23,539 bases of DNA from a virus: positions 1 through 23,539 of IMG/VR virus record IMGVR_UViG_3300038629_000118; one strand, 5' to 3'. Below, one piece after another: positions 16,163 to 22,296 of the stretch. A program made the translations under genes and the position numbers. The notes beneath the pieces are model-generated. The model saw only the letters and a program-made list of their open reading frames with translations. It made no database searches and was not told where the DNA came from. Numbering within the stretch: the stretch's first letter is position 1; each line of letters begins with the position of its first letter.

Positions 16163-16192
16163 TTGTAATATGTTAAAAGTTTATTATATTTG
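16163..16192 (+). promoter_or_regulatory. Bacteroidetes-type promoter P1 for the early operon
   Basis: TTG at 16163-16165, 19 bp, then TATATTTG at 16185-16192. This fits the Bacteroidetes primary sigma consensus (TTTG, about 19-21 bp, TAnnTTTG). The predicted RNA start is at about 16198-16200, shortly before the ATG at 16215. A 16-base stretch, TTTATTATATTTGTAA at 16180-16195, is repeated exactly at promoter P2 (19888-19903). Confidence 0.8.
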
Positions 16193-16214
16193 TAAGGAAT
16201 TAAAACTATAACAA

Positions 16215-16535
16215 ATGAATTTAAAAAATATAAATTGGGAAAGCGAAACAGATTTAGCAGAATTAAATGAATGCGAAAATTTGATTTATTCAGAAACGGA
16301 TTTCAATATCACGTTTGAATATGATGGAATTAAAACATTTGCAGTAATTGACTTTTTAATTAACCTTTACGAAACTGGGGAAGAAGAAACCAACTCTTTA
16401 GATTTAGACGTTTTAGATGTTGATATAACTATTAAGCAGTTATTAGACGAAAATGACAACCCTTTAATGTTAGGAGTTAGAAAAGAAATTGAATTACAAA
16501 ACGAATTAGGAACGGATCTAAAAATACAATTTTAA
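16215..16535 (+). CDS. Hypothetical acidic protein, first gene of the early operon
   Basis: This 106-residue, strongly acidic protein (MNLKNINWESETDLAELNEC ... YETGEEETNSLDLDVLDVDI) lies just after promoter P1, so it should be among the first phage proteins made. No basic patch, membrane segment or known motif is seen. Small acidic first-in-operon phage proteins are often host-takeover or DNA-mimic proteins; that is only a general expectation here. Confidence 0.7.
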   Translation: MNLKNINWESETDLAELNECENLIYSETDFNITFEYDGIKTFAVIDFLINLYETGEEETNSLDLDVLDVDITIKQLLDENDNPLMLGVRKEIELQNELGTDLKIQF

Positions 16536-18896: not shown

Positions 18897-19618
18897 TGAG
18901 TAGAGTAGGAAATTTTAGTAGTAGCTCAATACATAATTTAATGAGCAAAGGAAGGGGAAACTTTTCAATTGAAAACATAGGAAAACCATTTACAACTTAT
19001 GTAGAAGAAAAGGTTTTTGAAACTAACTTGAATCGTTCATTGTCTGCAGATAATAATGCAAGGCCAACTGCATGGGGAACTTTAGTTGAAGAACAAGCCT
19101 TTAGCAAAATGGGATTAGAATATTCCCTTGTTTCAAAAGAAAGATATTACAAAGGTGATTATTGGAGTGGGATGCCTGATTTAATAACTGATGAAGTTGT
19201 TGGCGATATAAAATGCCCTTGGACTTTGAAAAGTTTTTGCAATGTTGTTAAAACAATAAAGAATTTTAATGAAACTAAAGATTTAGAGTTATTCAAAAAA
19301 GAGCATCCAGAATGGTATTGGCAACTTGTATCGAATGGAATACTTTGCAAGAGAGATAAAGCCATCTTTGTTGTTTACTGCCCTTATAAAGAAGATTTGA
19401 TTGACATCAAAGAAATGGCAGAAAGCCATTTAGGTGATGGAAGTAACCGCTTTGCATTTATAACGTGGGCAGAAGATGAGGACCTACCATATTTAGTTAA
19501 AGATGGAAATTATAACGATCTGAATGTAATGGAATTTGAAATCCCTCAAGAAGATAAAGACATTTTAACAGCACGTGTTGAAATGGCTATTGTTGAACTT
19601 AAAAAACAATTAAAATGA
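18896..19618 (+). CDS. YqaJ/lambda-exonuclease-like recombination nuclease
   Basis: The 240-residue protein shows GTLVEEQAF at 61-69 (acidic residue of motif 1), SGMPDLI at 91-97 with D95, VGDIKCPW at 102-109 with D104 and K106, and WYWQLVSNGIL at 140-150 with Q143. This is the order of PD-(D/E)xK phage exonucleases that resect double-strand ends 5'-3' and load an annealing protein. The gene starts within the stop of the Rad52-like gene. The central region 112-139 is a helical insertion. Function as partner of that protein is strongly suggested by context. Confidence 0.8.
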   Translation: MSRVGNFSSSSIHNLMSKGRGNFSIENIGKPFTTYVEEKVFETNLNRSLSADNNARPTAWGTLVEEQAFSKMGLEYSLVSKERYYKGDYWSGMPDLITDEVVGDIKCPWTLKSFCNVVKTIKNFNETKDLELFKKEHPEWYWQLVSNGILCKRDKAIFVVYCPYKEDLIDIKEMAESHLGDGSNRFAFITWAEDEDLPYLVKDGNYNDLNVMEFEIPQEDKDILTARVEMAIVELKKQLK

Positions 19619-19884
19619 AAGGAATACATTTATTTAAAGCGATAAATTCAGACAAATTAGAGAAGTTAATTTCTGTTTTTACACAAAAAGAAATAGCAGG
19701 AATGTTTAATTGTACTGAAAGCACTGTTAGTCAATATTTAACTGATACACTAACAATTAATAATGTAGAAACAAATAAATCAATTTATGATACCGTTCCA
19801 ATTTACAGAACAAAAGGTTCGTGGATGAACTCGGCAGAAAGAAATTCTTTTATTGAAATGAAAAAATCTATTGAATATAATTAA
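19615..19884 (+). CDS. Small helix-turn-helix protein, putative regulator
   Basis: The 89-residue protein starts in an ATGA overlap with the exonuclease gene. FTQKEIAGMFNCTESTVSQYL at about 22-42 is a clear HTH: a 'TQKEIA..F' helix, turn, and 'T.STVSQYL' recognition helix. The rest has no known domain. Promoter P2 and the structured RNA at 19906-19990 lie directly after its stop, so it could act on that promoter; this is inference. Confidence 0.65.
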   Translation: MKGIHLFKAINSDKLEKLISVFTQKEIAGMFNCTESTVSQYLTDTLTINNVETNKSIYDTVPIYRTKGSWMNSAERNSFIEMKKSIEYN

Positions 19885-19900
19885 AATTTTATTATATTTG
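19871..19900 (+). promoter_or_regulatory. Bacteroidetes-type promoter P2
   Basis: TTG at 19871-19873, 19 bp, then TATATTTG at 19893-19900, the same spacing and box as P1. The 16 bases at 19888-19903 are identical to 16180-16195. The -33 element falls inside the end of the HTH gene. The expected RNA start is at about 19906-19908, immediately before the first stem of the structured RNA. Confidence 0.8.
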
Positions 19901-19905
19901 TAAAG

Positions 19906-19990
19906 TAAGAAGCGTAGGAACTTCAAAACAACTTTATTTAACAGAGCCTTTCGGTAACGGTCATCCTACGCACCCTGCCGAGAGGTTTTT
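19906..19990 (+). ncRNA. Structured phage RNA with pseudoknot and terminator-like 3' stem
   Basis: Two perfectly placed stems interlock. GCGTAGGA (19912-19919) pairs with TCCTACGC (19964-19971). CCTTTCGG (19947-19954) pairs with CCGAGAGG (19978-19985) with one G-U pair, extensible with A-U/G-U pairs on both sides. The 5' arm of the second stem lies inside the loop of the first and its 3' arm outside, giving an H-type pseudoknot. Five T follow (19986-19990). The segment is much richer in G+C than its surroundings and begins right after P2. It may be an independent RNA of about 85 nt or a regulatory leader for the gene at 20035. No match to a known riboswitch or ribozyme consensus is recognised. 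Confidence 0.6.
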
Positions 19991-20034
19991 GTGTTTATTA
20001 ATAGTTTACTGGTAACTTAAAACCTTTATTAATC

Positions 20035-20235
20035 ATGGCAATAGAAATACAATTCAAATGTTCAAGAGATGAACAGGATTATGTAATAGTAAATCAAATA
20101 GGTGACAATATTTGGTTGACAGGAATTTTTGATGACAATTCAATTGAATTTGTTTTTAACATCAAAACAGCTATAAAGCTTTCCAAAACAATTCGTACTG
20201 AAATCAACAAAGCAAAGGAGGTGAACAATGGCTGA
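20035..20235 (+). CDS. Hypothetical small protein, 66 aa
   Basis: It is the first gene after promoter P2 and the structured RNA. The product starts MAIEIQFKCSRDEQDYVIVN, is beta-rich to about residue 42, and ends with a helix (AIKLSKTIRTEINKAKEV). No family is recognised. Its 3' end contains the strong ribosome-binding sequence of the next gene, with which it overlaps by 8 bp. Confidence 0.6.
   Translation: MAIEIQFKCSRDEQDYVIVNQIGDNIWLTGIFDDNSIEFVFNIKTAIKLSKTIRTEINKAKEVNNG
20214..20223 (+). promoter_or_regulatory. Canonical Shine-Dalgarno for the replication initiator-like gene
   Basis: AAAGGAGGTG at 20214-20223, with GGAGG six bases before ATG 20228, is a near-perfect anti-16S match. Nearly all other starts in the window have none. 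It fixes the start of the downstream gene. Confidence 0.75.
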
Positions 20236-20878
20236 TCAAAAAAAGTCATTTGTTCTTTATGGGGATTTAATTCACACCACTCAACACTTAACAAATGAAG
20301 ATGCAGGCAAGGTGTTTAAATGGGTTTTGGAATATGTTAATGATAATGAACCCAAACCATTAAAAGGCTTATTAGCTGCTGTATGTGAACCTATAAAACA
20401 ACAATTAAAAAGGGATTTACTTAAATACGAAACCAAAAGGGAGCAATACAGCGAAGCAGGTAAAAGAAGTGCTGAGGCTAGAAGGTTAAAGAAACTTGAA
20501 GCTGAAAAAGAAAGTAACGAAATTCAACGAACGTTAACGAACGTTGAAAATCGTTCAACGAAATCAACTGTAAGTGTTAATGTAAGTGATAATGTAAATG
20601 TAACTGATAATGTTATTAAAAAGAAAAGTAATATAATAGAGAGAAAGCAGGATTTTAAAAAATCCCTTTTATCATTTTATCCTAAATATTCAAAAGATTT
20701 ATTAAATGAATTTTATTCTTATTGGACTGAACATGGAGATAAGGATAAAAAGATGCGATTTGAAAAGCAAACATCATTTAGCACATCCAGAAGATTATTA
20801 AGATGGGGTAAAAACAATTTTAATAATAACAGTTCAGAAACGAACACTGAATTTAACGCAAATAATTATGTAAACTAA
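20228..20878 (+). CDS. Replication initiator-like protein (DUF6291-type N-terminus)
   Basis: The 216-residue protein begins KKSFVLYGDLIHTTQHLTNE with DAGKVFKWVLEYVND (about 5-40), the pattern of a phage/plasmid domain found in replication proteins. A basic linker (70-95) and low-complexity linker (95-135) follow. The C-terminal part has FYSYWTEHGDKDKKMRFEKQ with TSFSTSRRLLRW (about 162-193), typical of proteins beside phage helicase genes. The linker DNA holds tandem repeats that look like an origin. The next gene is a DnaB-type helicase starting in its stop codon (TAATG), so a helicase-loading or origin-binding role is likely. Confidence 0.65.
   Translation: MADQKKSFVLYGDLIHTTQHLTNEDAGKVFKWVLEYVNDNEPKPLKGLLAAVCEPIKQQLKRDLLKYETKREQYSEAGKRSAEARRLKKLEAEKESNEIQRTLTNVENRSTKSTVSVNVSDNVNVTDNVIKKKSNIIERKQDFKKSLLSFYPKYSKDLLNEFYSYWTEHGDKDKKMRFEKQTSFSTSRRLLRWGKNNFNNNSSETNTEFNANNYVN
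20526..20611 (+). repeat. Iteron-like repeats and AT-rich repeats, candidate replication origin
   Basis: AACGAACGTT occurs twice in perfect tandem (20526-20535, 20536-20545). TTCAACGAA occurs at 20523-20531 and 20554-20562, with an inverted TCGTT at 20551-20555. Next come 12-base AT-rich repeats: GTAAGTGTTAAT (20570-20581), GTAAGTGATAAT (20582-20593), a half unit, and GTAACTGATAAT (20600-20611). The block lies in the linker region of the initiator-like gene, as in the lambda O gene. The origin role is inferred. Confidence 0.5.
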
Positions 20879-22296
20879 TGGGAGAAATAAAAGAATATAA
20901 AAAAAGAAAAAAGATTTCAAATTTAGGCGAAGGTAAATTACCGCCACAAGCAATTGATTTAGAGGAAGCAGTTTTAGGTGCTTTATTGTTAGAATCTCAA
21001 GCATTAAGGCAAGTAAGAAACATATTACATCCTAAAGTTTTTTATAAGGAATCAAATCAGAAAATTTTTCAAGCGATTATTGATTTAGAAGTTGAATCTG
21101 CACCAATTGATATTTTAACTTTATCACAAAAATTAATGAGCAAGGGCGAATTAGATTTAGTTGGGGGGCCTTATGCAATTACAACCTTAACAAATTCAGT
21201 AGCATCTGCTGCAAATATTGAGCATCATGCAATGATTATACTCCAAAAGTTTACTAAAAGGGAGCATATCAGAATGGGGAGCGACATGGTTACGCAGGGA
21301 TATGATGAAACTATTGATCCATTAGACACGAACCAAGCTGTAAGTATTATGGCAAATGATTTATTAAATTCTATTAATACAAATGTTGAAGTAACTAATT
21401 TAGAACTTGTAAAGGAAGCAACACAAAAAATTCAAGATGCTAAAAACCAAAAAGGTGTGACAGGAATACCAACTGGATTCCATGAACTTGATGATGTTAC
21501 TTGTGGGCTTCAAAATGGAGATTTAATAATTGTGGCTGCTCGTCCTGGAATGGGAAAAACCGCTTTCTCTTTATCAATGGCTAAAAATATGGCAGTTGAA
21601 CATGAAACACCTGGAGCAGTTTTTAGTTTAGAAATGACCTCAATACAATTGATGAACAGATTAATTTCTTCCGAAACAGAAATACCTTTAAAAAAATTAC
21701 AAACTGGAGATTTAACAGATTTAGAATGGAAGCAATACCATGAGAAAGTAACACCATTGATTAATGAAAAGTTAACCATTATTGATAGGACAAAAAATGT
21801 CCACAGAATTAAATCAAAAATGTTGGAATTACATTCAAAAGGAAAATTGAAATGGGCTGTTATAGATTATTTACAAATAGCTACTTATCCAGAATTTAAG
21901 AAAAACAGAGAAAGGGAAGTTTCAGAAATGTCTGCAATGTTTAAAGATTTAGCATTGGATTTAAACATACCGATTATTCTTTTAAGCCAATTGAGTAGGG
22001 AAGTAGAAAAAAGGTCTACAAAGAGACCTCAACTATCAGATTTGAGAGATTCTGGAAGTATTGAGCAAGATGCAGATATAATAATGTTTTTATTCAGACC
22101 ATCTTATTACAAAATGAGTGGTGCACCAGAAAGTCAAGCTTTAGGTATAATTGCCAAAAACAGAAATGGAGAATTGAAAACAATAAATTTCAAATTTGAT
22201 GGCCCAACTGTTACATATAAAGATTGGGAGGCCAAATCATTCGATTCACCTGCAGTTGATAGTATTAATAATGACAATGATTGTCCTTTTAAATAA
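20878..22296 (+). CDS. dnaB: Replicative DNA helicase, DnaB family
   Basis: The 472-residue protein has the DnaB layout. An N-terminal domain (about 20-125, LPPQAIDLEEAVLGALLLES) is followed by a linker and a RecA-like domain. That domain carries TGIPTGFHELDDVTCGLQNG, Walker A ARPGMGKT (221-228), the H1a-type FSLEM (249-253), Walker B WAVIDYLQI with D330, LLSQLSREVEKR, and a final LRDSGSIEQDAD with IIAKNRNGE. The length is near that of bacterial DnaB (about 470). It unwinds the fork and is loaded at the phage origin. Coupling to the initiator-like gene by TAATG supports a phage replisome operon. Confidence 0.95.
   Translation: MGEIKEYKKRKKISNLGEGKLPPQAIDLEEAVLGALLLESQALRQVRNILHPKVFYKESNQKIFQAIIDLEVESAPIDILTLSQKLMSKGELDLVGGPYAITTLTNSVASAANIEHHAMIILQKFTKREHIRMGSDMVTQGYDETIDPLDTNQAVSIMANDLLNSINTNVEVTNLELVKEATQKIQDAKNQKGVTGIPTGFHELDDVTCGLQNGDLIIVAARPGMGKTAFSLSMAKNMAVEHETPGAVFSLEMTSIQLMNRLISSETEIPLKKLQTGDLTDLEWKQYHEKVTPLINEKLTIIDRTKNVHRIKSKMLELHSKGKLKWAVIDYLQIATYPEFKKNREREVSEMSAMFKDLALDLNIPIILLSQLSREVEKRSTKRPQLSDLRDSGSIEQDADIIMFLFRPSYYKMSGAPESQALGIIAKNRNGELKTINFKFDGPTVTYKDWEAKSFDSPAVDSINNDNDCPFK

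Follow-up and report, generated by a model that had tools for sequence, protein, structure and literature searches.

The window analysed here is a 23,539-nt stretch of phage DNA, and the parts of the element described below, with its promoter and the genes it leads, lie on the plus strand. The genes led by the element (20035..22296) are a 66-aa ORF without a Pfam match (20035-20235), a gene for a DUF6291 protein with weak primosomal-protein similarity (20228-20878), and a DnaB-type helicase gene (20878-22296). As the preliminary description had held, a promoter lies just before the element. It is of the Bacteroidetes type (19871..19900), with TTG at 19871-19873, a 19-nt spacer, and TATATTTG at 19893-19900, so that TTG-N19-TATATTTG ends at 19900; the promoter-like TATTATATTTG occupies 19890-19900. 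From this position, the RNA start is expected at about 19905-19908.

A near-identical copy of the promoter region (96% over 23 nt) was found at 16173-16195, before an ORF at 16215-16535, with no kissing-hairpin leader. Because this near-identical promoter (at 16182) drives a different group of early genes that lacks the leader, the leader contributes something specific. Immediately before the promoter of the element, 19615-19884 encodes a small helix-turn-helix-like protein with a weak match to CII-like and DNA-binding phage families. A DnaA-like HTH protein takes this position in the L009 group. The helix-turn-helix-like protein is a possible regulator of the 19871..19900 promoter.

Two interlocking 8-bp stems had been proposed for this region, and they were recovered exactly, with loops of 27, 9, and 6 nt. 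The first pairs GCGTAGGA (19912-19919) with TCCTACGC (19964-19971), and the second pairs CCTTTCGG (19947-19954) with CCGAGAGG (19978-19985), one of its eight pairs being G-U. The claimed H-type pseudoknot stood as a topology, and its plain form was refined with the relatives to two kissing hairpins because the stems of H1 and the apical stem of H2 covary.

Hairpin H1 (19909..19924) is formed by GAAG (19909-19912) and CTTC (19921-19924) around the loop CGTAGGAA (19913-19920), and reads GAAG[CGTAGGAA]CTTC when written through. The 5' strand of the kissing helix, CGTAGGA (19913..19919), pairs with the 3' strand TCCTACG (19964..19970) in the H2 loop (19962-19971), a pairing supported by covariation; G19912 with C19971 gives an optional eighth pair. 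An A-rich linker (19925..19946; consensus among relatives AAnnATTwT) connects H1 to H2. Hairpin H2 (19947..19985) was supported by folding, the descriptor, and covariation. It consists of the basal stem S2 (19947-19954 / 19978-19985), an internal loop (19955-19958 / 19975-19977), and an apical stem, GGT 19959-19961 / ACC 19972-19974, that flanks the kissing 3' strand. Directly 3' of S2, the U-tract (T5, 19986..19990) confirms the five-T end given earlier. A stable hairpin followed at once by T5 is the signature of an intrinsic terminator, and H2 with the U-tract looks like a predicted terminator of this kind just before the first start codon.

The computed energies were -10.3 kcal/mol for the loop-loop duplex, -19.5 kcal/mol for H2, and a weak -1.0 kcal/mol for H1 alone. 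Each kissing heptamer occurs once in the whole window. Standard folding, which covers the nested part only, recovered H1 and H2, and its z-score of -2.47 is moderate; it is the relatives, rather than this score, that make the case strong.

The remaining 5' untranslated region (19991..20034) holds GGTAACTTAAAACC at 20011-20024, a conserved short motif, separate from the main element, that lies 10-20 nt before the small-protein start codon. The motif also occurs in contigs L004, L105, L116, and L122, and similar stretches were seen by eye in phi19:1, Harreka_1, and hemulen6-1. A GGT/ACC mini-hairpin is possible within it.

Relatives and shared architecture

The DUF6291 protein downstream of the element was used as the query at the start of the search, which returned 16 viral contigs. 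The sequence upstream of the matching gene is not visibly similar to that of the window in L006, L007, and L008, and is so to some degree in L004. The order found in the window (TAnnTTTG, first strand, linker, stem, return strand, stem, T-run) is kept in all four contigs, and a script based on order only found the same arrangement in most relatives. The sample was widened by two further protein-led scans and by named phages. The DnaB query gave a sole match, L003, a contig already in the sample and encoding an identical protein. L005 has a possible pseudoknot by eye that was too irregular and was left out of the counts.

Extra short stems around both strands of the first helix were recognised by eye from the lined-up elements and were built into a descriptor of the two-hairpin kissing form. 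This descriptor was applied, with a cut-off score of 55, to each strand of 1.2 Mb of DNA from related phages. The full architecture gave 131 matches scoring at least 55 on the coding strand, compared to none on the opposite strand and none in five shuffles of the 1.2 Mb. The window copy scored 65, and no control reached 55. Removal of duplicates left 72 distinct elements. The window copy has the features of the family, namely the promoter, H1, linker, two-stem H2, loop pairing, U-tract, and a start codon within about 50 nt.

Median values were 5 nt from promoter box to H1, 5 bp for H1, 7 bp for the kissing helix (6-9 bp across the family), 14 nt for the linker, 11 bp for the basal stem, and 4 bp for the apical stem. 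The length from the promoter box to the end of S2 is tightly held, with a median of 90 nt (IQR 88-92). The internal loop of H2 is mostly UGAA opposite GGAU, in either strand order, and GAGUA opposite GAAA in another group; we take the former to resemble tandem G-A pairs and the latter the loop-E (sarcin-ricin) motif. Loops and stems vary completely among phages with the internal pairing kept, and little sequence is conserved family-wide.

The flanking signals were recovered by searches that did not demand them. TAnnTTTG was present 2-10 nt upstream of H1 in 37 of 39 covariance-model matches, against a background of 2.5%. The model contains no promoter term; 18 or so of the 39 lie near the model-building sequences, which came from the promoter-anchored descriptor, and the rest were reached by the model. 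Among 77 elements from a search that did not require T, the first three positions past S2 carry T in 90-92%.

The preliminary description recognised no known riboswitch, ribozyme, or sRNA family, and the Rfam 15 covariance models agree: no match was obtained over the element in the window or at 18 further loci (E up to 5 or 1). No earlier description of the element was found in the literature (open-licence papers). The element belongs to an RNA family absent from Rfam. An HDV-like ribozyme, which would be a nested double pseudoknot with conserved catalytic residues, was rejected, as there was no Rfam ribozyme match and the relatives do not conserve the strands that come after the first stem.

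Two other structured RNAs were observed in the sample. In morran9-1, an intergenic gap holds a DUF805b RNA (RF02914) at L019:2556-2590, with 52 bits, above the gathering score. Another promoter-pseudoknot-terminator arrangement, shorter than the element and with no clear H1, combines CTTTCA/TGAAAG and AGGGTTA/TAACCCT at L011:2311, L012:2463, L013:2002, L015:1372, and L016:1064; its copies are nearly identical, too alike for covariation to be judged.

Covariation of the hairpins and the loop-loop helix

Compensatory change in both stems had been named as the check on the proposed fold, and it was found across class A, class B, and the subclass of the window taken together. The class-A alignment contains 18 sequences aligned without structure, and its 26 pairs in four helices give 468 cells. 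All 468 cells were standard pairs, and both-side changes occurred at 19 of the 26 pairs, kissing helix included; the H1 stem changed on both sides at four of its five pairs. When the partner was slid by 1-3 columns as a control, pairing fell to 30-47%. RNAalifold on class A found the nested helices independently. In class B (12 sequences), 93.8% of the cells were paired, compared to 26-45% when slid. In the subclass of the window (window, L004, L127, and L130), every member retains the whole kissing helix, in which three pairs have changed on both sides. The apical stem of this subclass has one both-side change, the H1 stem is invariant, and the basal stem is misaligned in this alignment.

The covariance models were built from the nested stems only, without encoding the kissing pairing, and they reach further relatives. 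In the matches of these models, complementarity between an element's own H1 and H2 loops averaged 6.85 nt, compared to 3.66 nt for loops taken from different elements (permutation p < 1e-4). The family model R2 did not report the window copy (19909-19990) at E up to 5 and found its relative L004 weakly (E 0.44); the descriptor detects both. In a linker-length test of a continuous coaxial stack, the correlation was negative (-0.47), a value confounded by the S2 cut point.

When the class-A alignment was scanned exhaustively for further helices, none showed covariation at more than a single pair. One candidate antiterminator in class A, the linker AAGG with CCTT of S2, was rejected, being missing from L012 and L071 and showing no covariation. 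The preliminary description had also suggested a leader that switches between pseudoknot and terminator. This was rejected, because the terminator stem is part of the pseudoknot, so that both coexist in one fold, and no rival helix has more than one covarying pair. On the same ground, a riboswitch or classical attenuator was rejected. The earlier proposal of a pseudoknotted RNA of about 85 nt with a promoter start and a terminator-like U-tract, for its part, is supported by the sequences.

Carriers and downstream genes

The cultured carriers are the Flavobacterium phages 11b, morran9-1, and hemulen6-1, the Olleya phage Harreka_1, and the Cellulophaga phage phi19:1; divergent forms occur in phi19:3, phi13:2, and elemoA. 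Among 395 Bacteroidota genomes searched with strict filters, three matched the covariance model. The R2 matches in L198 and L199, the two of these three that were not known beforehand, were rejected because the architecture is absent. Genuine bacterial copies are found in Sphingobacterium, adjoining genes that read as terminase subunits, and one lies ahead of a DnaB gene or operon. Given these terminase-like neighbours and, in one case, the DnaB gene, the Sphingobacterium copies are most likely prophages.

The next ATG follows the basal stem and U-tract by a median of about 23 nt (10-90%: 15-46 nt) in the 72 distinct elements. No TAnnTTTG promoter lies between U-tract and ATG in any of the 72 elements, so that expression from the leader promoter must read through the U-tract. 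A free small RNA combined with a separate promoter for the genes was rejected on this count.

Replication genes stand directly behind the element in most phages found. The genes were named by sequence recognition, and we take them to be replication initiators, DUF6291 proteins, and small proteins of 60-77 aa, and further HNH and GIY-YIG endonucleases and ERF-like, ParB-like, and lipoprotein genes. Because the element is common to unrelated downstream genes, a general leader function is favoured over a gene-specific operator. Several contigs contain a pair of elements whose loops differ; of the two in hemulen6-1, one lies before an endonuclease gene and the other before the gp040-gp041-primase genes. 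Homing-type endonuclease genes, identified by sequence, have their own leader copy at L104:308, L106:236, L115:1260, L137:1612, and L102:2517. These endonuclease-linked copies suggest that mobile genes carry the element along or bring it in. In morran9-1, the annotated hypothetical ORF gp042 (L176:14157-14300) is laid over a structured leader and is probably not a gene.

Proposed function and comparison with known systems

At the level of sequence, the comparison establishes the promoter, both hairpins, the kissing helix, the U-tract, their conservation and covariation, and the position before diverse early genes. We consider it moderately probable that the element is a cis-acting 5' leader of the phage early (replication) operon, with H2 and the U-tract as a regulated intrinsic terminator. 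Transcription would start at about 19905-19908 from the promoter ending at 19900, and the first 85 nt or so would fold into two hairpins locked by a loop-loop helix of 7-8 bp. Most transcripts would end at the U-tract (19986-19990), giving an RNA of about 85 nt, and the initiator and helicase genes would be expressed by way of regulated read-through. Regulation would act on the kissing fold. One option is that the kiss makes the terminator hairpin form reliably and that breaking it permits read-through; another is that the kissing fold is bound by a phage or host factor, or presents a surface to RNA polymerase itself. Since the pairing between the loops is possible as soon as the H2 loop has been transcribed, ahead of the 3' arm of S2, the kissing helix may fix the upper half of H2 and so assist closure of the terminator. 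With no conserved antiterminator helix found to compete, there is no sign of a classical attenuator switch, and one has to assume a factor acting in trans. The preliminary description had left open an autonomous small RNA or a leader; the position favours the cis leader and disfavours the autonomous small RNA. Beside the cis leader, a released 85-nt RNA is possible, either as a by-product or with its own role.

A device that needs no protein is a tentative possibility. The nascent RNA would carry its own terminator, and the loop-loop lock, formed before the terminator stem has been completed, would decide between stop and read-through; the kissing state would be the switch, without an antiterminator hairpin, in early operons across Bacteroidetes phages.

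It seems rather unlikely that the terminated transcript of about 85 nt is a functional product in trans, with the downstream genes served by leaky read-through. The transcript predicted from the sequence does begin at H1 and end in the U-tract, and a prophage precedent with short and read-through isoforms exists in IsrK of Gifsy-1, where one promoter gives a short terminated RNA and a read-through mRNA of the genes behind; IsrK is described as acting in trans by pairing with its read-through transcript (PMC4825925). The complete variation of loops and stems leaves no conserved seed visible, the heptamers of the window have no second site within it, and two copies in one genome differ in their loops. 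Furthermore, the tight link to the following start codon is unexpected for a free-standing small RNA. The element resembles IsrK in its one promoter with a predicted short terminated RNA and read-through; it differs in that no kissing-hairpin fold is noted for IsrK in the text consulted, and the likeness is one of description, not of sequence (PMC4825925).

HK022 put is an RNA of about 70 nt with two stem-loops near an early phage promoter and a compact tertiary fold, and it needs no protein factor (PMC9378689). It binds the beta' zinc-binding domain of RNA polymerase, by which pausing and termination are suppressed. A mechanism of this type, in which the two-hairpin RNA stays on its polymerase and causes read-through of its own U-tract and of later terminators, is judged unlikely. 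Place and size are alike, as about 85 nt with two hairpins and a tertiary contact stand at the very 5' end, and the tightly held total length fits as well. However, the second hairpin of put is described with no terminator U-tract (PMC9378689), and put contacts polymerase via specific residues, whereas the present family conserves little sequence. Compared by description only, putL and putR are likewise cis-acting phage RNAs that start early transcripts with two stem-loops just past the promoter (PMC9378689). They differ from the element in host phylum and promoter type, and the element has a kissing helix of 6-9 bp and a terminator-like H2 with U-tract before the start codon. By analogy, the element may work most like IsrK-type short-RNA/read-through leaders or HK022 put, and we would file it under neither.

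An improbable reading is a structured 5' end that protects the mRNA or serves as an operator for translational repression, with the U-tract as an AU-rich ribosome entry region. The fold does occupy the 5' end, with the start codon 15-46 nt further on, but in about 90% of elements the U-tract starts precisely where S2 stops, which is a terminator signature, and a common autogenous repressor is unlikely given that the downstream genes are unrelated. The 5' pseudoknot of T4 gene 32 mRNA is an example of such a structured 5' end. The likeness is that a phage replication gene has an mRNA beginning with a pseudoknot; the element differs in its terminator U-tract, its kissing hairpins, and the diversity of the genes it precedes.

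Very improbably, the element is a replication origin or primer RNA whose transcript primes phage DNA synthesis beside the initiator and helicase genes: it does directly precede replication genes in most phages found, but second copies in the same genomes precede homing endonuclease and other genes, and its position tracks the start codon of the next gene.

ToxI of type III toxin-antitoxin systems likewise forms a pseudoknot and has a terminator and then a gene behind it; here there are no tandem repeats and no ToxN-like toxin, and replication and other early genes lie behind. A type III system was rejected at the window on the single occurrence of each heptamer and on the next genes (66-aa ORF, DUF6291, DnaB). 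Intrinsic-terminator attenuators and riboswitch leaders share a terminator in the 5' leader between the promoter and the first gene. They differ from the element, which has no mutually exclusive covarying antiterminator, no conserved core resembling a ligand pocket family-wide, and no Rfam match. The new family would be a kind of leader attenuator.

To our knowledge, early gene control in Bacteroidetes phages is almost unknown compared to that in lambdoid phages. The present element is a common RNA with a defined promoter, fold, and position, carried by several cultured phages and absent from Rfam. Its fold, with two hairpins, a kissing helix, a tandem-GA or loop-E-like internal loop, and a terminator, makes it an inviting object for structural work, and it may serve Bacteroidetes genetics as a regulatory part. 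The finding raises the question of whether Bacteroidetes phages control their replication genes by termination in the leader, and what releases it.
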